10,643 bases of DNA from Pancytospora philotis (taxonomy: Eukaryota; Microsporidia). The stretch spans positions 1 to 10,643 of the forward strand of contig JALRLY010000192.1 in assembly GCA_023647555.1 (NCBI GenBank), in the 5' to 3' direction. Below the pieces are notes generated by a model that was given only the letters and a program-made list of their open reading frames with translations, did no database searches and was not told where the DNA came from. Made by a program: the position numbers and the translations under genes. Of this stretch, positions 1,279-10,537 are shown piece by piece (position 1 is the stretch's first letter; every line of letters starts with the position of its first letter).

Positions 1279-1372
1279 TGTCGAAAACATGTTTATTAAT
1301 ACTCGTGCCGTTATCTTGCATGGGGAAATTTTGCACAAAGTTTTTATACCGTAGCCCCTTTTTGCTACGACA
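1279..1372 (-). repeat. 3' LTR of element A (94 bp)
   Basis: This copy is identical base for base to 4937-5030. It begins TGTCG and ends CGACA on the + strand, so the terminal five bases are inverted repeats containing the canonical TG...CA. The poly(A) signal AATAAA (- strand, 1297-1292) lies 13 bases before the LTR end and would serve to end the element transcript. At 94 bp it is very short for a Ty3/gypsy LTR. Confidence 0.95.
1292..1297 (-). terminator. Poly(A) signal AATAAA in 3' LTR of element A
   Basis: TTTATT on the + strand reads AATAAA on the element strand, 13 bases before the outer end of the LTR. Cleavage would therefore fall at or near the element edge. The same hexamer in the 5' LTR is part of the coding frame as Asn-Lys. 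Confidence 0.6.
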
Positions 1373-1382
1373 CTCTTCTCCT
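1373..1382 (-). other. Polypurine tract of element A
   Basis: On the - strand AGGAGAAGAG directly abuts the 3' LTR. It lies between the Gag-Pol stop (1389-1391) and the LTR. A purine run in this position primes plus-strand DNA synthesis in LTR retrotransposons. Confidence 0.85.
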
Positions 1383-1388
1383 AGGCTT

Positions 1389-4300
1389 TTATGCTCGCTT
1401 CACATGAACTTTATTTAGTCTCATATTTTTAATTCCATCACTTACTTCATATGCATCTTCACCAATATGCTGCATAACATAAAATCCTGGAATCCAATTT
1501 CGGTCTAATTTTCCTTTCTTCACGTGGTTGAATACTAGTACCTGTGCGCCTATTTCGATATCTCTTTTAATAGTAATAGTGCCTTTAATGATTCCTGGTT
1601 TATATCGTTCACGGTGTTCACAGATTTTTTTCAGTAGTTCTTCATGGTTGATAGGTGCATCTGGTAGGCACAGAGCGTCCATTTCAGTATCAACAGGTAG
1701 TTTAGGTTTGTGTCCGAATCTTGCAATATAGGGAGACGTGTCAATCGCTCGATTGTAAGAGATGTTCGTGCCAAAGGCTGCTTTCTTCACTGCGTTCTTT
1801 AAAGAAAGTTGCCCAAATCTGCTCAATAGTTTCACTTTATTCCATAGCGTTTGGTTTGTACGTTCGACTAATCCTACCGTCTCGTGGTGATACGGTGAGC
1901 TGTACTCCCAGTGCACGCCGGCTCGCTTTGCCCACTCTTTAACTTCAGCATTTCTAAACTCAGTACCATTGTCAGTGAGCACTCGTTTAGGAAATGCACC
2001 TATTGCTTGTACAATACTCTCGATTGCTTTCTTGACTTCAATTGCACTTTTCTCATTTAGCGTTCTAGCCTCAACCCATTTAGTAAAATGGTCCACACAA
2101 ACCAGCACAAACTGTCCCTTTTTCTTTTCTGTATCAATTCGCCCAATGAGGTCCATCTCCCAAAGCTCATTTGGATGTTTTGTCTCCAGTGCCCGGTTCT
2201 TCGAATTCACCCGTGTGTGCCCAGCTTGCTGACACGTTCCACATTGATTCACCCAATCGTCAATGTCCTTGTGCATAGTGGCCCATGAATACCGGCCACA
2301 GAGCAAAAACTTCATCGTTGCCGCCGACCCGTGACCACTTAGGCAGTGGTATTCTTGTAGTATTGTCCGCTGCCTATCTTCCCTTACTTCGGCTATGTGC
2401 ATCTCCTTCTTCAGACCCTTTGTCGCTTCCTGTGTGTATCTACTCAGTCCGTCTGCTGCATTGTTTTCGCCTTTAATGTATACTACGTCGAACTGGTAGT
2501 CATGAAGTTTCATCGCCCAGCGGGCTAGGCGGGCGTTCAGATTCTGGGATTTATGCAGGGACGTAAGTGCTTGGTGGTCGGTCTTCAAAATGAACGGTTT
2601 ACCCACAAGATATTTCCTGAAATGCTCTAATGTCTTCACAACTGCTAACAATTCTTTGTCGGTTACTGAATAGTTTCTTTGAGCTTTTTCCATACTTTTG
2701 CTATAGCTATGAACAATATGCTCTCTGCCCGCGTCGTCCTTCTGCGACAAGATCCCTGAAATCGCGTAGTCTGATGCGTCTGTGGTGACAAAGAAGGTCT
2801 TCTCCATATCAGGCTGGTAGCGAAGCGTATGTTCTGTGATTTCTTTTTTTAGTTCTTGAAAGCATTGTTCTTCTTTCTCAGAAAATACAATTGACTTTAT
2901 GCTCCGTTTAGTCTCTCCCTCCAGAAGTTTGAACAGTGGTGCGGCCTTTCTTGATAGTTCTGTAATAAACTCTCGGCAAAAATTGACGAGACCAATGAAC
3001 GACCGTAGCTCTCGAATAGTCCTAGGCCGTTTGAATTCGCGAATTGCTCTTATCTTGTCAGGCGAAGGTTTGACAATGCCCTCTGCAACCACCCGTCCCA
3101 AGATCTCAATTTCTTGTTTGAACAGTTTGCATTTCTTGGGATTCAAAATTAAATTGTAGTCACTGATTCGCTTCATTACGCAGTCTAGATGTTGTTCATG
3201 GTCCCTCTTGGTTTCAGAAAATACGATAATATCGTCCAGGTAGGGTATCACAAACAACCCATATTCTCTCTGGAAAATTGTGTCCATAATCCTTTGGAAT
3301 GTCGGTGGGGCATTGCAAAGCCCGAACGGCATTCTGTTATATTCATAAAATCCCCCTTTGAATCTGAATGCAGTTTTCTTTTTATCCTGCTCTGCGACCC
3401 GAATCTGATGATATCCTGATGTCGCATCCAGTGAACTAAAGAATCTTGCCTTCCCTAACTTATCTAGAATCCAGTCAATCCGGGGTAGTGGATATTCATC
3501 CTTACTGGTTGCACCATTCAGCGGTCTATAATCTACGCATAGCCGCAAGCTTCCATCCTTTTTCTTGACCGGGACTATATTTGATGACCACTCACTCTTC
3601 GAATTTCTGATGATTCCGGTCCGTAACATATCTTGTACTTGAGTTCCTATCACCTCTTCCCACTGATATGGAATCGGGTATCCTTTCGCTGAAATAGGAG
3701 CTGTATTACCTGTTTCAATCCTGTGCTCCAACACGTTGCATGCTTTATCTCGAGGTAGTTCGTTACTCATTAGGTACTTGTATTTCTCTAAATACCTTTT
3801 TTCTGATACATTTTCTATCTCTGGTCCTGTTGTTACTGTTCCGTCTATGCTTGCTACGCTGGGCATTACAAGCTTGACAAATAGTTCCGCATTCTCGCAG
3901 ATCCAGTCGCTCCCCAGCAAGACGTGGTCCTGAGGGGTGTCTTCAGTAACAATAAACTCTGCCATACTCGGAATCCCCTGAATCTTAAATTTTATACTGG
4001 CTCTTCCCAGTACCTTTATCGGGGCTCCCGTCACACTTCTTAGAAGCATCTGTACAGGGGCCAGCGCTAGCCCCCTGGGAACACAGTCCCTCCGCATGAG
4101 CGAGACGTCTGCCCCTGTATCTAACAGTGCCATGCATTTCGTCGTCCCTAGCTCAAGCACTTTCTTAAAGGAGCTTACCATAGCTACCTTATCTCCGCGC
4201 CTCATCGAATAAACCATATAATTATCTTGAATTTTATTCATGCTTTGTTGTTTCTTTTGGTTTGGCTTCCCACGGCGCCACCCTTTAGACTCGACCAGTC

Positions 4301-4979
4301 TCACCACTTCACAGTCTGAAGTATAGTGCGATCCATTCCCGTGTAACCGACAGTACTTCGTCAGCCCAGAATTCCCGACCGCCTCAACTAGCGCCTGTTC
4401 AGTGTCCTGAACCATAACCTCATTAACGACCCTCTCTGGGAATGCAATCCATGCTGCCCCCTCTGCTTTGGTTACGAACGTTGTCCAATCGGCCGACTCG
4501 TTCGCAGCTTGGAGTAACATGGATTTGATATCCCCCGGAGACCGCACAATCACCTGCTTGATCAGTGATTCGCTGTTTACGCAACCCCTCCGATAGCACG
4601 TTGTTGCATCTGCTAAGAGCTTCATATATGCAACATACGTCTTCGACTGTCCTGCGGTGAAGAAACGACTAACTACTTCCGCTGTTTCTTTAGAGTTGGT
4701 AAAGCGCTGGATCAATTCTGCCATCAATGCTTCCACTGGTAGTTCCACCAGCCGGGTCCAATGCTCTGATGCCCAAGCTTCCGCTTCTCCTCTGAGGGAC
4801 ATCAGTGTCATGCCCGCAATCGTTCGGTCATCCAATCTCGAGCAGTGTCGGATCATCTTGATCCTCTCAACCCACTGCTCGATACACTCTCCTTGTTTAC
4901 CAGCAAACTCTCCCCACGACTTGTTATTCGTCGCCATGTCGAAAACATGTTTATTAATACTCGTGCCGTTATCTTGCAT
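1389..4979 (-). CDS. Gag-Pol polyprotein of element A, single frame (1196 codons)
   Basis: All proteins of the retrotransposon are made as one chain, to be cut by its own protease. Numbered from the ATG at 4979: Gag capsid-like region about 20-180; zinc knuckle 210-223 of form C-x2-H-x4-H-x4-C; aspartic protease with LLDTGA (Asp287); RT about 425-640 with Asp518 (SLDATSGYHQ) and YLDD 580-583; RNase H with Asp734, Glu776, Asp801, Asp843; integrase with H878-x4-H883-x29-C913-x2-C916 and D943, D1003, E1039 (DD35E). A GPY/F-like C-terminal segment follows (PGFYV); there is no chromodomain. The start at 4979 follows TTTCCCC and lies inside the 5' LTR, so the first 14 residues are LTR-encoded. The ATG at 4937, whose A is the last LTR base, is an alternative. 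No frameshift or stop separates gag from pol, so any Gag excess must arise by other means. Confidence 0.95.
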   Translation of the reverse strand: MQDNGTSINKHVFDMATNNKSWGEFAGKQGECIEQWVERIKMIRHCSRLDDRTIAGMTLMSLRGEAEAWASEHWTRLVELPVEALMAELIQRFTNSKETAEVVSRFFTAGQSKTYVAYMKLLADATTCYRRGCVNSESLIKQVIVRSPGDIKSMLLQAANESADWTTFVTKAEGAAWIAFPERVVNEVMVQDTEQALVEAVGNSGLTKYCRLHGNGSHYTSDCEVVRLVESKGWRRGKPNQKKQQSMNKIQDNYMVYSMRRGDKVAMVSSFKKVLELGTTKCMALLDTGADVSLMRRDCVPRGLALAPVQMLLRSVTGAPIKVLGRASIKFKIQGIPSMAEFIVTEDTPQDHVLLGSDWICENAELFVKLVMPSVASIDGTVTTGPEIENVSEKRYLEKYKYLMSNELPRDKACNVLEHRIETGNTAPISAKGYPIPYQWEEVIGTQVQDMLRTGIIRNSKSEWSSNIVPVKKKDGSLRLCVDYRPLNGATSKDEYPLPRIDWILDKLGKARFFSSLDATSGYHQIRVAEQDKKKTAFRFKGGFYEYNRMPFGLCNAPPTFQRIMDTIFQREYGLFVIPYLDDIIVFSETKRDHEQHLDCVMKRISDYNLILNPKKCKLFKQEIEILGRVVAEGIVKPSPDKIRAIREFKRPRTIRELRSFIGLVNFCREFITELSRKAAPLFKLLEGETKRSIKSIVFSEKEEQCFQELKKEITEHTLRYQPDMEKTFFVTTDASDYAISGILSQKDDAGREHIVHSYSKSMEKAQRNYSVTDKELLAVVKTLEHFRKYLVGKPFILKTDHQALTSLHKSQNLNARLARWAMKLHDYQFDVVYIKGENNAADGLSRYTQEATKGLKKEMHIAEVREDRQRTILQEYHCLSGHGSAATMKFLLCGRYSWATMHKDIDDWVNQCGTCQQAGHTRVNSKNRALETKHPNELWEMDLIGRIDTEKKKGQFVLVCVDHFTKWVEARTLNEKSAIEVKKAIESIVQAIGAFPKRVLTDNGTEFRNAEVKEWAKRAGVHWEYSSPYHHETVGLVERTNQTLWNKVKLLSRFGQLSLKNAVKKAAFGTNISYNRAIDTSPYIARFGHKPKLPVDTEMDALCLPDAPINHEELLKKICEHRERYKPGIIKGTITIKRDIEIGAQVLVFNHVKKGKLDRNWIPGFYVMQHIGEDAYEVSDGIKNMRLNKVHVKRA
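4927..4936 (-). other. Primer binding site of element A (TGGCGACGAA)
   Basis: On the - strand TGG follows the 5' LTR with no spacer, as expected for pairing with the CCA end of a tRNA. TGGCGACGA would pair with a tRNA ending TCGTCGCCA, which resembles some eukaryotic serine tRNAs; this is from recall and unchecked. The site overlaps codons Met-Ala-Thr (ATGGCGACG). Confidence 0.65.
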
Positions 4980-5030
4980 GGGGAAATTTTGCACAAAGTT
5001 TTTATACCGTAGCCCCTTTTTGCTACGACA
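4937..5030 (-). repeat. 5' LTR of element A (94 bp), also coding
   Basis: Identical to 1279-1372. In element orientation it runs: dyad CGTAGC/GCTACG, TATA box, CCCC-ATG, AATAAA read in frame, end ...CGACA. From the ATG at 4979 to its end the LTR encodes the first 14 Gag residues. Confidence 0.95.
4999..5027 (-). promoter_or_regulatory. Element A promoter: TATAAAAA with adjoining dyad
   Basis: On the - strand TATAAAAA spans 5006-4999, 27 bases before the ATG at 4979. Right upstream is a perfect inverted repeat, CGTAGC (5027-5022) and GCTACG (5013-5008), with an eight-base loop and one base between it and the TATA box. Transcription would begin close to the start codon, giving a nearly leaderless message. 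The dyad could bind a regulator or merely be structural; that part is speculative. The 3' LTR carries the same sequence at 1341-1369. Confidence 0.65.
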
Positions 5031-5068: not shown

Positions 5069-5932
5069 TCACTTTTTTAGTGTAATTCTTCGGGTACTCT
5101 TTTTTAACATAAACCTGAGCAGATACAGCCAGACAAGACTCTGAGCTTTCACCGCCGCCCAATTCCCTTCGATGGTGTTGGTATGCACACCAGTGACTGG
5201 ATCCTTGAAGTGCAGACTGTGGTTCACAGTCTCATGTGAGGCAAAAAGCTCTGCAGCGCCGATGTATCCTCTTCACATGTCGGATCGCATGCGTGACTCA
5301 ACGTGGATAAATCTAGATAGCACGCCTAGCAATATTTCTCGTGTGCAATTCGCGACAGGCAGCATAATAATCTACCGTTTACCTCCCTTCTCGGTAGCAC
5401 CAAGCACCCAAGTCGCATTCATCCTGTGCCCACGATGAAACTTGCGCTTACCGAACTTGGACTCGTCCACCTCGACAATCACATCAGGCCCGCCGATCTG
5501 CCCAACCCGCTTGTAGTACCGCGGGATAGCGATACGCGATACTTTTCATAGAAGGCGATGCACTGCCTTCCGCTCAATACGCGCCAGCTTACATATGAGC
5601 TTCGTGGATGCTCCATCCATCCACAAATCTAAAATCCCAAGCGCCTGCTCCCTTGGTATGCGAAGCTCTTCAAATATCGTGCCTTTCCACAAAGAACGGC
5701 GATGCCCACAGAACTTATTGGTGCACCAGATAGTGTGCCTGCCCTTGAAGACCTCCAGCCGTGCTTCCAACTTGCATTTATCGCATTTGAGCTCAGCTTG
5801 CGCCATTATCTGACTCAGAAGCTCGGTTTCCTCTCCATAGTCAAGACGCACCGTCAAATTTTTCTGGATTCTTTTTTTAAACTTTTGCTTATAAGGCGTT
5901 TTCTGTCTCATAATAAGGATATTAGCCGCCAT
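5069..5932 (-). pseudogene. Merlin (IS1595/ISXO2-like) DDE transposase, inactivated by three stops
   Basis: One - strand frame runs 287 codons from ATG 5932 (alternative 5911, before RQKTPYK) to TGA 5069-5071, near family length. It starts with a basic segment, then a zinc-ribbon-like C-x2-C ... W-C-x4-C part, then the helical LWMDGASTKLICKLARIERKAV segment of this family. The catalytic core shows VEVDESKFGKRKFHRGH (Asp at 5465-5467), an RSD (Asp at 5279-5281) and TNTIEGNW (Glu at 5168-5170), so all three acidic residues remain. Three in-frame stops kill it: TGA 5546-5548, TAG 5372-5374, TGA 5273-5275, with no frameshift. The last sits where such transposases usually have Trp. I could not identify terminal repeats or the 8-9 bp target duplication expected for Merlin, so the element borders are unknown. 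Confidence 0.85.
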
Positions 5933-6116
5933 AAGATAACCTAATGTGAAATTGAGCAAAATTCAAGCGACAAACACACCTTTTTTTAAAATAAGAAACT
6001 GAGCTCTTTAGTCCAGATGAAATATATATGCTGCTCAAAAGGTATATTAATACCAAATAATATGCGATTGCTATTTTTATATTTTATTATGCTATTTTAG
6101 ATTGCTTTTTGAAATT
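5933..6116. other. AT-rich spacer, no gene seen
   Basis: The sequence is strongly AT-rich with T and A runs. It would hold the promoter side of the Merlin gene and possibly its terminal repeat, but I could not match an inverted partner near 5036-5068. The + strand frame of the next feature is open back to 6051 without an ATG. Confidence 0.5.
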
Positions 6117-6278
6117 ATGCATTATTTTTTAAACAAAAATCCCGTCTGGGAGGCTAAAATGAGCCCATTGAGCATGGTTACAATAGTACCGAGAGAAACA
6201 AGATGCACATTCAAGAAATTTGATATAGAAGCAATAAGCAGAATAAAGTCGCAATCTATGCCAAATCCTGAATGGCAT
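6117..6278 (+). pseudogene. Unrecognised short ORF split by insertion of element B
   Basis: From ATG 6117 the frame codes 54 residues (beginning MHYFLNKNPVWEAK, later RETRCTFKKFDIEAISRIK) and runs into LTR element B at 6279. With the insertion and one target duplication removed, the frame would continue at 9875 for six codons and stop at TAA 9893-9895, giving about 60 residues. A second ATG lies at 6159. I do not recognise the protein: it has no clear domain, is basic and includes one Cys. It may be a small host gene, the tail of an older element, or chance. In favour of a gene is its less AT-rich, protein-like composition compared with the AT-rich sequence before it. Confidence 0.35.
6274..6278. 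repeat. Target site duplication of element B, left copy (GGCAT)
   Basis: GGCAT directly precedes the LTR start TGTTG and is repeated directly after the other LTR at 9870-9874. Confidence 0.93.
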
Positions 6279-6383
6279 TGTTGGAGCTTGCCAATGACGT
6301 AAGCGTGCGTGTATAAAAATTTGTCACGTAGGTCAGCCATCGGATGGCAGACCAAGAGTTCAATAAAGTCTGTTCAGTCAACA
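6279..6383 (+). repeat. 5' LTR of element B (105 bp), also coding
   Basis: Identical to 9765-9869. It starts TGTTG and ends CAACA, a five-base inverted terminal repeat around TG...CA. It holds CCAAT/TGACGTAA, TATAAAAA, the Gag ATG (6344) and AATAAA (6362-6367). The segment 6344-6383 encodes the first 13 Gag residues. Confidence 0.95.
6291..6319 (+). promoter_or_regulatory. Element B promoter: CCAAT, TGACGTAA and TATAAAAA
   Basis: CCAAT (6291-6295) overlaps TGACGTAA (6295-6302), which resembles a bZIP/CRE site. TATAAAAA follows at 6312-6319, 32 bases before the Gag ATG. Transcription would start only a few bases ahead of that ATG. In the 3' LTR the same bases encode the polyprotein C-terminus and stop. 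Factor identity is a guess from motif likeness; the TATA box is the firm part. Confidence 0.6.
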
Positions 6384-9300
6384 AAATGGCGATGACGCCG
6401 AGCTCAGGCAACTTAAAAGTACCCTTTACCTTCGGGGGAAGGAAGGGGGAGGATCCAGCGCGCTTCTTGAAAAGGTTCGAGGAGTACACGGTAGCGCTGG
6501 GTTACAGCGAGGTGCTGAAGAAGATAAGTTTAGAGCTAGCATTAGAGGGAGAGGCCCAAGTCTGGAGTGAGACGTTGGGTGATAAGGTGGATTTCGAAGA
6601 GCTCAAGGCGAGCTTACTGAATAGGTTCCGGCCCCGCCAGAGCGAGATGATGGCCTGGAAAGAGCTGATGGCAGCTTGCCGGGGCCCTAACGAAACGCTA
6701 ATGGGCTTTCTGGATAGGATCCAAGTGATCGGGAGACAGGGAGGGCTCGATAGGGAGATGATTTTGGGGCCCACGTTGAACGTTCTACCTACAGAATTCT
6801 TAGCTCGGGTGAGTTTAGACCCGCAGGGTATCAGTTGGGAGGGCTTGTATCGAGCGGCTGCCAGCGAGGAGTTGTTGAATGCACGGAAGCCAGTTGGCGA
6901 ATGTTATAGCATGGTCACTAGCATGGAGAGGCCGCAAAAGACAGAGAATGCTCAGTATGTACGGGGCAATTGCTTTTTCTGTGAGAAGCCCGGGCACTAC
7001 ATACGTAACTGCCTTGCTCTTCAGAGACTGAAAGCCGAGCGAGTACGCTCCGTACCGGCAGGTCCGGATAGGGCGTCGGAATTAAATTCATCGAGCTATG
7101 AGGTATGCAGATCATGTGTGGAGGAAGTAGCAGTGGAGCCAGTGCTACCTGCTAGGGTAGGCAGTCAGGTGGTAACTGCCATTTTAGATACAGGTTCAGA
7201 CCGTAGTCTGGTGGGAGCACATCTGGCTGGCAACCAGGTGCTGGAGCGATTAGATCACCAGATCAGGGCTGCGAACAATGTGGACATGCCTATCCTCGGA
7301 GTGTGGAAGCGAGCTCCGGTAAAAGTCTTAGGCGCAGAACGTCAGGTGGATTTGGTAGTTACACCTTCCTTAAACCGGAAGTGTATCTTGGGAAGAGATT
7401 TTCTCGCTGAGAATGGAATCCGGCTGAAGATGGATCAGGAAATGAAGCTGCTGGGTGAGCACCGAATACTCGTAGAAGGGGGAGGACCGATTGCTGTGCG
7501 ATATCGGCGCTACTCGTGGCACGAAGAGGAGGCGATGGAGAAGATCTTGGAGGAATGGCTGGAGAAAGGCATTATTCGCCACTCTACGAGCCCGTGGAGA
7601 GCGCCGCTGGTGCTTGTGCCGAAGAAGGATGGTCAATGGCGTATGTGCAATGACTTCCGAGCACTCAATCAGCTTACCAAGCGCGACGGGTACGTTCTTC
7701 CTTGGGTGGATGATATTTTTGATGCGCTGGCAGGAGCGACAATCTTCAGTAAGATGGATGCTAAAGCCGGGTACCATCAGATTGACCTCACTGAGGAGGA
7801 CAAGGAGAAAACCGCTTTTGGGTGCAAGTTTGGTACTTTTGAATACAACAAGATGCCGTTCGGGCTGGTGAATGCCCCGGCGACGTTCCAGCGAGTGATG
7901 GACCGCATACTGAGTGCGTACTTATGGAAGTTTGTAGTCGTGTACTTGGACGACATCATTGTCTTTAGCAAGAGTGTACAAGAGCATGAGATCCACCTGC
8001 GGTTGGTCACAAAGGCACTGGGCCAGGCCGGATTGATGCTTAACGAGCAAAAATGCGAGTACCAGAAGGAGGAGATCGAGGCGCTAGGGCATCAAGTCAG
8101 CGCTCAGGGAATCAAACCGGTAAAGGCTCGCATTGAGGCGATTGTGCACGCCAAATTGCCAACCACTCGGAAGGAAATGCAATCTTATCTAGGGCTTGTC
8201 AACTATTGTCGTAAGTTTATACCAAATCTATCGACAATCAGCGCTCCGTTATATGCACTCACAAAGACTAGCTGCACGGAGGAAGAGTTTGCTATGCAAG
8301 TAGTAGAAGCAGAAGCACAGCAGGCATTCAAAAGAATTGTGGAAGAGATGTCTAAGGAGCGCGTGTTGGCACTACCAAGAAGAGAAGGGTTGTTCATCTT
8401 AACGACTGATGCTTCAGAATTAGGTGTGGGAGCTGTATTGTCGCAGATCCAGGAGGAAGAGGAAAGGCCAATCGCATTTTACAGCGCGTTGCACTCAGGC
8501 GCAGAGCAAAGGTATTCGACCACCGAGCAGGAATTATTAGCAATTGTATCTGCTGTTCGCCATTTCCGTTACTACTTGCTGGGGAGGCCGTTTAAGCTGA
8601 GGACCGACCATAAGGCATTGGTGTACTTGTGGCAGTCGAAGGACAAGAACAATCGGCTATTCCGGTGGGCAATCCAGCTTCAGGAGTTCTCCTTCGAGTT
8701 AGAATATCTGAAGGGTGCAGAGAACTACAGCGACGTACTTAGCCGTGCGTTCAACTGTTTGGCTATTACGGAAGAGAGCGGAGATATCCAAGATCTCACA
8801 GGAGACGAAGCAGGTCAGATCAGAGAGTTTGAGCGAGCCCATATGGAGACTGGGCATGGGTCGGCGGAAGCCGTTAAGTATCTGTTAGCTAGGGAATTTT
8901 ACTGGAAGGGAATGAAAGGTGCGGTTGAGAAGTGGTGCAAGAACTGCAAGATTTGTCAAATGGACAAAGAGCCGCCACGTTCCAAATCGATCACGCCGAT
9001 GGAGATCTGGGCCCCAGATCGCCGGTGGGAGATCGACCTGATTGGGCCACTGGAGAACGGAGAGTACATCATGACGGCAATCGATGTGTTCACCCGCTTT
9101 GCGCAAGCGCGAAGACTCAGAGCTAAGGAAGCTGAGTCGGTGATTAGGGCGCTACACGATATGCTTAGACACGCGAGGGCTCCTGCTGAGATACTATGCG
9201 ATAATGGCCGTGAGTTTGTGAACCAGGCATTCGAAGAGTTCTGCGCTCGTAAGGGAATCAAGGTGAAACACGGAGCGCCGTACACTCCCACCACTACAGG

Positions 9301-9802
9301 AGCAATTGAAAGATTCAATCAAACTCTTATGAGCAAGATTCGGAAGCTAAGTGAGTTTGGTCGGATCGCGTGGTCGCGAGTACTACAGAAAGCAATCGAT
9401 GCCTACAACATATGCCCTTCGAGAGCTACAGGGGTAGCGCCGGCTGAGATTGTGGACCTCCAGGAACAAGGAGCGCCTGAAGAGTTGGCAGAGCTCCTCG
9501 ATCGCATTAGTATTCGGATTCGACGGTACCACGGTGAGTACCGAACTGAGGCAAAGCCTACTTATGAGTTTCACCTTGGCGAAGATGTATGGTATAAAGA
9601 CCACCGCGGTAGGTTGGGAAAACTAGCACCATTATGGTTTAGGCGCGGGCGTGTACAGGAAATACTCTTCAAGGCGGTGCGTATACTTACGGATGAAGGT
9701 AAGTTATTAGTAGTACATCATGCCAAGGTCAAGCCGGTATGCTCTAAGCCAAATGAGGGGGAAGTGTTGGAGCTTGCCAATGACGTAAGCGTGCGTGTAT
9801 AA
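6344..9802 (+). CDS. Gag-Pol polyprotein of element B, single frame (1152 residues)
   Basis: One chain carries all retrotransposon functions. Residues from ATG 6344: Gag capsid-like region about 25-180; zinc knuckle C210-x2-C213-x4-H218-x4-C223; aspartic protease ILDTGS (Asp282); RT about 385-590 with Asp472 (KMDAKAGYHQ) and YLDD 534-537; RNase H with Asp689, Glu730, Asp755, Asp797; integrase H833-x4-H838-x29-C868-x2-C871 and D898, D953, E989 (DD35E), then a basic C-terminal domain without a chromodomain. The start lies in the 5' LTR; in-frame ATGs at 6386 and 6392 behind the LTR are alternatives. The last twelve codons lie in or touch the 3' LTR, and the TAA stop (9800-9802) is part of the LTR TATA box. 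Gag and Pol are not separated by a stop or shift. All catalytic residues are present, so it is probably functional. Confidence 0.95.
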   Translation: MADQEFNKVCSVNKMAMTPSSGNLKVPFTFGGRKGEDPARFLKRFEEYTVALGYSEVLKKISLELALEGEAQVWSETLGDKVDFEELKASLLNRFRPRQSEMMAWKELMAACRGPNETLMGFLDRIQVIGRQGGLDREMILGPTLNVLPTEFLARVSLDPQGISWEGLYRAAASEELLNARKPVGECYSMVTSMERPQKTENAQYVRGNCFFCEKPGHYIRNCLALQRLKAERVRSVPAGPDRASELNSSSYEVCRSCVEEVAVEPVLPARVGSQVVTAILDTGSDRSLVGAHLAGNQVLERLDHQIRAANNVDMPILGVWKRAPVKVLGAERQVDLVVTPSLNRKCILGRDFLAENGIRLKMDQEMKLLGEHRILVEGGGPIAVRYRRYSWHEEEAMEKILEEWLEKGIIRHSTSPWRAPLVLVPKKDGQWRMCNDFRALNQLTKRDGYVLPWVDDIFDALAGATIFSKMDAKAGYHQIDLTEEDKEKTAFGCKFGTFEYNKMPFGLVNAPATFQRVMDRILSAYLWKFVVVYLDDIIVFSKSVQEHEIHLRLVTKALGQAGLMLNEQKCEYQKEEIEALGHQVSAQGIKPVKARIEAIVHAKLPTTRKEMQSYLGLVNYCRKFIPNLSTISAPLYALTKTSCTEEEFAMQVVEAEAQQAFKRIVEEMSKERVLALPRREGLFILTTDASELGVGAVLSQIQEEEERPIAFYSALHSGAEQRYSTTEQELLAIVSAVRHFRYYLLGRPFKLRTDHKALVYLWQSKDKNNRLFRWAIQLQEFSFELEYLKGAENYSDVLSRAFNCLAITEESGDIQDLTGDEAGQIREFERAHMETGHGSAEAVKYLLAREFYWKGMKGAVEKWCKNCKICQMDKEPPRSKSITPMEIWAPDRRWEIDLIGPLENGEYIMTAIDVFTRFAQARRLRAKEAESVIRALHDMLRHARAPAEILCDNGREFVNQAFEEFCARKGIKVKHGAPYTPTTTGAIERFNQTLMSKIRKLSEFGRIAWSRVLQKAIDAYNICPSRATGVAPAEIVDLQEQGAPEELAELLDRISIRIRRYHGEYRTEAKPTYEFHLGEDVWYKDHRGRLGKLAPLWFRRGRVQEILFKAVRILTDEGKLLVVHHAKVKPVCSKPNEGEVLELANDVSVRV
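6387..6396 (+). other. Primer binding site of element B (TGGCGATGAC)
   Basis: TGG begins three bases after the 5' LTR and shares TGGCGA-Y-GA with the primer site of element A, suggesting the same or a related tRNA primer. It overlaps in-frame ATGs at 6386 and 6392, so it is also coding (Met-Ala-Met-Thr). Confidence 0.55.
9755..9764 (+). other. Polypurine tract of element B, inside the coding frame
   Basis: GAGGGGGAAG directly abuts the 3' LTR. It is read through as codons for the Asn-Glu-Gly-Glu stretch before the LTR-encoded C-terminus, so priming site and protein code overlap. Confidence 0.8.
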
Positions 9803-9869
9803 AAATTTGTCACGTAGGTCAGCCATCGGATGGCAGACCAAGAGTTCAATAAAGTCTGTTCAGTCAACA
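9765..9869 (+). repeat. 3' LTR of element B (105 bp), carries the Gag-Pol stop
   Basis: Identical to 6279-6383. Its first 38 bases finish the polyprotein (…ELANDVSVRV, TAA at 9800-9802). Twenty-seven bases later the LTR's own ATG (9830) opens a 21-codon frame that runs into flanking DNA and stops at 9893-9895. Confidence 0.95.
9848..9853 (+). terminator. Poly(A) signal AATAAA in 3' LTR of element B
   Basis: AATAAA lies 16 bases before the LTR end, so cleavage would fall close to the element edge. The equivalent hexamer in the 5' LTR (6362-6367) is read in frame as Asn-Lys. Confidence 0.6.
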
Positions 9870-9874
9870 GGCAT
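9870..9874. repeat. Target site duplication of element B, right copy (GGCAT)
   Basis: GGCAT directly follows the LTR end CAACA and matches 6274-6278. Confidence 0.93.
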
Positions 9875-10049: not shown

Positions 10050-10537
10050 GGACGCACTGTATGTCACCGAGGTAGTATGCATCGCGGCCGAGCGATGGGG
10101 GCTTATCGCAGAGAATCGTTAGGCACAGTTCGAGGTGTCCAAGGATCCAAAGAACAGGCGTTATTGAACATCGCGGCCAACAAGGCGCACGGCAACAAGC
10201 TGCTGGAGTTGTGGGTCGATGTCAAGAAAGCCTTCGACTCGGTAAACCACAGCTATCTCCTAGCCTGTATCAGACGCCTCTCTCTGCCAGCATGAGTGCA
10301 AGCATTTCTCGAGGCGACTATCGCAAGTTAGACACTGTAGGCCCGCTTGAACTTCGAGGTGATCTTGGCGAAGCGCGGTATTCTGCAGAGTGATACGCTC
10401 TCGCTGCTATTTTTCGCGCTGTGCACAGACCCCCTAAGCCGGTCGCTGAATGGGCTTTCTCTATGATAGCAGTTGAAGCAGGCGAGGGCCGCACCCACAG
10501 CATAAACCGCTTGCTCTTTGTTGAGTGGTCACTCTAG
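10050..10537 (+). pseudogene. Non-LTR (LINE) reverse transcriptase fragment, R2/CRE-like, decayed
   Basis: From 10119 a + frame reads LGTVRGVQGSKEQALLN, then WVDVKKAFDSVNH: RT motif A with Asp at 10218-10220 and 10236-10238. It continues through TGA 10293-10295, TAG 10329-10331 and TAG 10338-10340 in the same frame to KRGILQSDTLSLLFFALC (10371 on), where RGILQGD-LSPLLF is usual, then TDPLSRSLNG. After TGA 10464-10466 the signal shifts frame: NRLLFVEWSL (10505-10534) occupies the place of LLF-DDL, so the catalytic Asp pair (motif C) is lost. Upstream, ERWGLIAEN (ending near 10119) probably belongs to the same protein, one frame off. With five or more stops, two frame changes and a lost active site it is dead. 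The R2/CRE-like assignment is from motif style only; LINE RT is firm. Confidence 0.8.

Follow-up and report, generated by a model that had tools for sequence, protein, structure and literature searches.

A Ty3/gypsy-type element of the microsporidian Pancytospora philotis with a Gag-Pol frame that opens in one long terminal repeat and closes in the other

The window analysed here is the whole of contig JALRLY010000192.1 (10,643 nucleotides, nt) of Pancytospora philotis (assembly GCA_023647555.1), which is contig C62 of the assembly searched (3.68 Mb, 83 contigs). It carries an intact-looking Ty3/gypsy-type element, named B (6279-9869), with long terminal repeats (LTRs) identical over 105 nt and flanked by GGCAT, and our results show that its single Gag-Pol frame starts at an ATG inside the 5' LTR (6344) and stops at a TAA inside the TATA box of the 3' LTR (9800-9802). 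Directly visible are the geometry, the duplicated target site, the primer-binding site and, in all five paired elements of this genome, the start inside the LTR. The explanation that we regard as probable is that B is a P. philotis element of the Ty3/gypsy type in which a near-leaderless promoter of the host style places the start codon in the LTR, the overlap at the 3' end being a run-on of the frame.

Results

The reading frame of element B

The open reading frame makes up 96.3% of element B. Upstream of the ATG at 6344 the nearest in-frame stop is a TAG at LTR position 51, and a second in-frame ATG lies at 6386, just past the LTR. The C-terminal codons cover the CCAAT/TGACGTAA promoter motif and the purine tract GAGGGGGAAG, and 78 of the 105 LTR bases are coding, with 27 nt from the stop to the next ATG. 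An earlier note on this stretch had described a frame running from LTR to LTR into the TATA box, a promoter motif and polypurine tract that code for the C-terminus, and 105 bases that code for both protein ends; all of this was borne out. The identity of the two LTRs suggests a recent insertion.

Recurrence of the layout

Searches of the assembly with the B protein and the reverse transcriptase (RT) family gave 12 further stretches, and a repeat scan over these and the window found five elements with paired LTRs of 91-105 bp, A and B in the window and C24, C54 and C47 elsewhere (C-labels denote contigs or elements of the P. philotis assembly, P-labels related proteins, whose ends were placed from the protein alone, and L-labels DNA loci); the remaining element pieces in the scanned stretches had no LTR pair. 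The LTRs of a pair are identical in four of the five, and five-base target duplications are likewise found in four, the left flank of C47 consisting of N. In all five elements the Gag-Pol frame begins at an ATG within the 5' LTR, and in four of them the stop is inside the 3' LTR, within TATAAA in B and C47, TATTTAAG in C24 and TTCTTAAG in C54. Copies ending upstream of the 3' LTR, which the earlier note had held would count against it if they formed the majority of intact copies, are thus the minority here. The in-LTR stop is facultative, since the frame of A, which opens at an ATG (4979) inside its 5' LTR, ends at a TAA (1391-1389) 16 nt before the 3' LTR; the frame of C29b also stops before its purine tract, on a contig that ends before any 3' LTR. 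The layout recurs among the paired elements of the assembly, and B as a unique element was therefore rejected.

A search of the P. philotis assembly with the LTR of B matched only the two LTRs of B itself. P0002, a P. philotis protein 70% identical to that of B and encoded on a 4452-nt contig, had no match in the assembly searched, which is therefore probably incomplete; judged from the protein only, P0002 may also end inside an LTR. Many relatives end in ...GEVS or ...GGDVATGI, which fits a purine tract followed by TGTCG... and suggests a short LTR run-on elsewhere. A search of genome contigs gave 27 loci, among which only L059 looked microsporidian and was cut before its 3' end. Two of the others, L065 and L072, likewise have a pol frame that closes within a terminal repeat, and the 3' overlap is therefore not peculiar to microsporidia; most other loci had no usable LTR pair, and short terminal repeats are possibly assembly overlaps. 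No DNA of relatives was found when viral contigs were searched with the B protein (P0001), and a search of viral contigs with alignment A1 gave one unrelated-looking contig, L110, with a 123-bp terminal repeat at its ends. The B LTR had no match in a plasmid search.

Promoter geometry and the start motif

The distance from the TATA-like box to the LTR ATG is 27 nt in A and C47, 28 nt in C24 and C54 (the C54 box, TTCTTAAG, being chosen by position) and 32 nt in B, and it is 27 nt in C49 and C29a and 28 nt in L059. Transcription commonly starts about 28-32 nt after a TATA box. CCC lies at most 8 nt before the ATG at 10 of the 11 element starts examined, including those of A, C24, C54 and C47, with B as the exception, and within 8 nt at 14 of the 340 ATGs on both strands of the window. 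The same motif is found in the host: among 13 proteasome genes, fetched from 17 matches in the assembly, 12 have an in-frame ATG with CCC no more than 8 nt away, which in 11 is the first in-frame ATG, and one has no in-frame ATG in its stretch. For Encephalitozoon cuniculi, PMC2803860 describes leaders of 1-7 nt for six genes by rapid amplification of cDNA ends (RACE), a motif resembling CCC directly ahead of the ATG, a signal resembling AAATTT upstream of that in ribosomal protein genes, and AAUAAA as the poly(A) signal. AATAAA is inside the LTR in all five paired elements, starting 19-26 nt from the LTR end. Multiplied over the five elements, the frequencies in dinucleotide-shuffled LTRs are 1.6e-4 for an in-frame LTR ATG, 3.6e-7 for one at least as far upstream and 4.5e-6 for AATAAA, all of which overstate the strength of the result, since C24, C54 and C47 are related.

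Several points weigh against a start in the LTR. In shuffles an open in-frame ATG arises in the LTR with a probability of 0.09-0.30 per element, and for B alone such an ATG occurred in 0.269 of shuffled LTRs and at least as far upstream in 0.131. Element B has no CCC motif, its TATA-to-ATG distance is 32 rather than 27-28 nt, and the second ATG at 6386 is in frame. Short leaders are known from other species and would apply to P. philotis by analogy, and PMC2803860 cites 5'-RACE products obtained by others for three E. cuniculi genes that lie far from the start codon, although the same paper attributes these distant ends to cryptic promoters. In addition, the deposited C24 protein PAPHI01_2429 (P0071, 1210 amino acids) starts at the ATG at the junction of LTR and primer site, 18 residues short of the C24 frame from the LTR ATG; this might be a choice of the gene caller.

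These points could be taken to mean that translation begins at the junction ATG (6386 in B), the LTR-encoded N-terminus being open but untranslated. The junction ATG is present in all five paired elements, P0071 and seven of 32 inspected relatives start at the equivalent residue, and the LTR ATG of B by itself is within chance. However, C49, P0003, P0004, P0005 and P0010 have no ATG at this junction and their next in-frame methionine is at residue 53 or later (the LTR position in the four proteins being placed by the peptide that the primer site encodes), and P0110, P0116 and P0118 likewise have neither a junction ATG nor another methionine before residue 57. The 32 relatives, which include proteins of Nosema granulosis, Vairimorpha necatrix, Enteropsectra breve and Pseudoloma neurophilia, come from the best 120 of 1086 hits of a second protein search; 17 of them begin with a methionine that precedes the primer-site peptide by 8-22 residues, seven begin at the peptide, seven lack the peptide and one is open without a methionine. 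Among the 17 are the annotated P. philotis proteins of C47 (PAPHI01_1237, P0072), which starts at the CCCATG of the LTR, and C79 (P0084). The host CCC motif at the LTR ATG of four paired elements, and the fact that a scanning ribosome would meet the 5'-proximal LTR ATG first, also argue against a junction start, which we consider unlikely.

Constraint on the LTR-encoded ends

A different alternative, the view of the earlier note, is that the two protein ends encoded by the LTR both serve a function and are under selection, each LTR change being tested at both ends. The comparisons that bear on it used the C47 and C24 LTR families in place of copies of B, with the C54 LTR left out of the search. 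The frame of the N-terminal part is kept, with coding lengths of 55, 58 and 58 nt, and the two indel events between near relatives are both in the unique 3' region (U3) of the LTR. Among the relatives of the C47 LTR, C29a and the solo LTR of C49, the length of the coding part is constant at 58 nt and U3 shows a 2-nt difference, and a further LTR on C31 is open over 58 nt. The LTR of C24 and the solo one found on C71 (duplication GACTG) differ by 1 nt in length before the ATG, and their sole coding difference is synonymous; C24 and C54 differ by 3 nt in LTR coding length. These observations, together with the 78 coding bases of the B LTR, favor selection at both ends, but the residues diverge: C47 and C29a differ by four synonymous and five nonsynonymous changes in 20 codons, C47 and the C49 solo LTR by three and six, and C29a and the latter by two and one. 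In this small sample the LTR-encoded N-terminus is therefore kept in frame, with its residues loosely held.

The 3' end speaks against this alternative. In shuffles the run-on into the LTR equals or exceeds the observed length in 59% of trials for B, 84% for C24, 74% for C54 and 89% for C47, and nothing therefore indicates that a longer C-terminus has been selected for. The overlap is missing in A and C29b, and on the tree the stop trait changes once if DNA-verified elements alone are scored and three times once ends placed from the protein are included. Functional selection on both ends thus seems improbable, and of the tight dual constraint proposed in the earlier note the conserved N-terminal frame stands, while the freely changing residues and a C-terminus that is short, absent in A and not above shuffles speak against the remainder.

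Finally, an assembly artefact or a degenerate frame open by chance, to which the low copy number (A and B once each in the assembly) might point, was rejected as extremely improbable on the recurrence of the layout in independent contigs and species, the shuffle statistics, the identical LTR pairs and target duplications, and the intact domains.

Classification and features of the window

Element B has the domain order protease, RT, RNase H and integrase, an LTR pair of the form TG...CA, a target duplication, a primer site and a polypurine tract, as in Ty3/gypsy elements (Table 1). In Ty1/copia elements the integrase precedes RT; in B it follows RT and RNase H, and membership in that group was ruled out. 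In a quick tree of 27 rows, 10 of them chosen outgroup rows, B groups with P0002-P0010 (Shimodaira-Hasegawa-like approximate likelihood ratio test, SH-aLRT, 100), and this clade is joined (97) to its sister, six elements of the same genome (A, C24, C54, C47, C35 and C49). The grouping is with microsporidian elements and not with those of other eukaryotes, the host being named for only some of P0002-P0010. The long-branched C71 falls outside; this is a divergent gypsy-like frame of 1095 amino acids on the reverse strand (L053), with direct repeats of about 39 bp at 1461 and 4780 that contain CCCATGG and would be extremely short LTRs, if LTRs at all.

Table 1. Features of element B, its flanks and the comparison element A (window coordinates).
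Feature	Position	Strand	Basis or remark
Target-site duplication GGCAT, left	6274..6278	.	sequence
B 5' LTR, 105 bp, TG...CA	6279..6383	+	repeat scan
TATAAA in 5' LTR, putative promoter, 32 nt before ATG	6312..6317	+	
Proposed start codon, LTR position 66	6344..6346	+	CCC absent within 8 nt, GCCATCGG there
Single Gag-Pol frame, 1152 amino acids, ATG 6344 to TAA 9802	6344..9802	+	
AATAAA, putative poly(A) signal, also coding	6362..6367	+	
Primer-binding site, 11-nt perfect match to tRNA-Ser(GCT) 3' end plus CCA	6387..6397	+	translated in frame, part of MAMT
Presumed CCHC zinc knuckle CFFCEKPGHYIRNC	6971..7012	+	by its motif
Aspartic protease PF00077	7136..7426	+	Pfam; RVP residues 265-361
Reverse transcriptase PF00078	7616..8098	+	Pfam; RVT_1 residues 425-585
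RNase H PF17917	8393..8689	+	Pfam; RT_RNaseH residues 684-782
Integrase zinc domain PF17921 and core PF00665	8828..9289	+	Pfam; H2C2 829-875, rve 891-982
Polypurine tract GAGGGGGAAG, translated	9755..9764	+	directly before 3' LTR
B 3' LTR	9765..9869	+	repeat scan
Stop codon TAA, LTR 36-38	9800..9802	+	inside TATAAA 9798-9803 (LTR 34-39)
Target-site duplication GGCAT, right	9870..9874	.	sequence
Comparison element A	1279..5030	-	5' LTR 4937-5030, 3' LTR 1279-1372, duplication ATTTC

The primer site is translated in these elements, in B as MAMT. Of 63 tRNA matches the 11 longest-looking were compared, and five of these are tRNA-Ser. The primer site matches tRNA-Ser(GCT) over 11 nt in B, AGA over 12 in C54 and 13 in C29b, CGA over 15 in C29a and TGA over 11 in C35/C79. 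In A, C24, C47 and C49 the tRNA-Ser match extends only 7 nt before a mismatch, and in L059 only 4. Elements of one genome thus appear to use four tRNA-Ser species (GCT, AGA, CGA and TGA) as primers. The C35/C79 element has been inserted twice, with different left flanks (L047 from 4795 and L048 from 1578); the two insertions are identical over 3310 nt, to the contig ends, with no 3' LTR in view, and the LTR of only 72 bp assigned to them contains ACCCCATTCGATG and AATAAA.

Elsewhere in the window, two inverted 60-nt copies, 87% complementary, flank element A (1172-1231 and 5856-5915), and a minus-strand frame at 5546-5959, with no Pfam match, resembles a piece of a Merlin/ISXO2-type transposase. 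A weak RT match with stops at 10173-10454, below the family cut-off, is probably a broken non-LTR element.

Discussion

The layout of element B would follow from the way its host appears to start genes. The LTR may act as a core promoter of the host style, in which the TATA box sets the transcription start 27-32 nt downstream, at the ATG or a few bases before it, as in the E. cuniculi genes with leaders of 1-7 nt. The transcription start defines the border between U3 and the repeated region (R), and a near-leaderless mRNA therefore has its ATG in R, inside the LTR. In the five paired elements R would then code for 13-19 residues at the N-terminus and end near AATAAA, and the frame would go on across the primer-binding site for tRNA-Ser. 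As for the stop, there would be no strong selection to place it before the polypurine tract, and the frame would mostly pass the tract, enter U3 and close at whichever stop comes first, which in B and C47 is the TAA within TATAAA. The overlap of the frame with the 3' LTR would then reflect compaction by run-on rather than a conserved C-terminal function. The 5' half of the layout looks general and explicable.

More tentatively, and with somewhat less than even confidence, near-leaderless transcription could have pushed microsporidian gypsy elements to a shared layout in which the start codon, R, the primer site and the polypurine tract are all translated, the stop often comes from the TATA region, and no more than 21-27 bases per LTR, from stop to start, stay uncoded. 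Ribosomes and the tRNA-Ser primer would in that case contend for one set of bases, and translation and reverse transcription would be mutually exclusive states of a single RNA. The analysis connects the layout of a retroelement with a property of its host, mRNAs that have almost no leader, and predicts a start codon inside the LTR in microsporidian LTR elements. It also affects annotation, as in the shortened C24 protein, and provides a modest natural example of bases that serve at once as primer site, R and coding sequence for a protein N-terminus.

Open frames that extend into the 3' LTR, like that of B, are known from nef of human immunodeficiency virus and sag of mouse mammary tumor virus, but these are accessory genes, and the main Gag of those viruses starts after the LTR, unlike that of B. 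Ty1, in turn, has its domains in copia order. No description of an LTR-to-LTR frame in a microsporidian element was found in the literature searched, with most subscription journals outside its coverage. Microsporidian Ty3/gypsy elements with a single polyprotein have been placed in microsporidia-specific groups (Parisot et al. 2014, PMC4202319); B is like them in type, single Gag-Pol frame and grouping, and the accessible part of that paper does not mention where the frames begin or end relative to the LTRs. The element type (PMC4202319) and an LTR start (Ty1, PMC5454406) are already known; a frame that runs from LTR to LTR, has its stop in the TATA box and is common to the elements of one genome appears to be undescribed in the literature searched. 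According to PMC5454406, transcription of Ty1 begins near nt 241 of its 334-bp LTR and the leader is 53 nt long, which by calculation puts the GAG start inside the LTR. Ty1 is therefore like B in its start in the LTR and its coding primer-site bases, and unlike B in its 53-nt leader, its 334-bp LTR and its separate GAG and POL frames.

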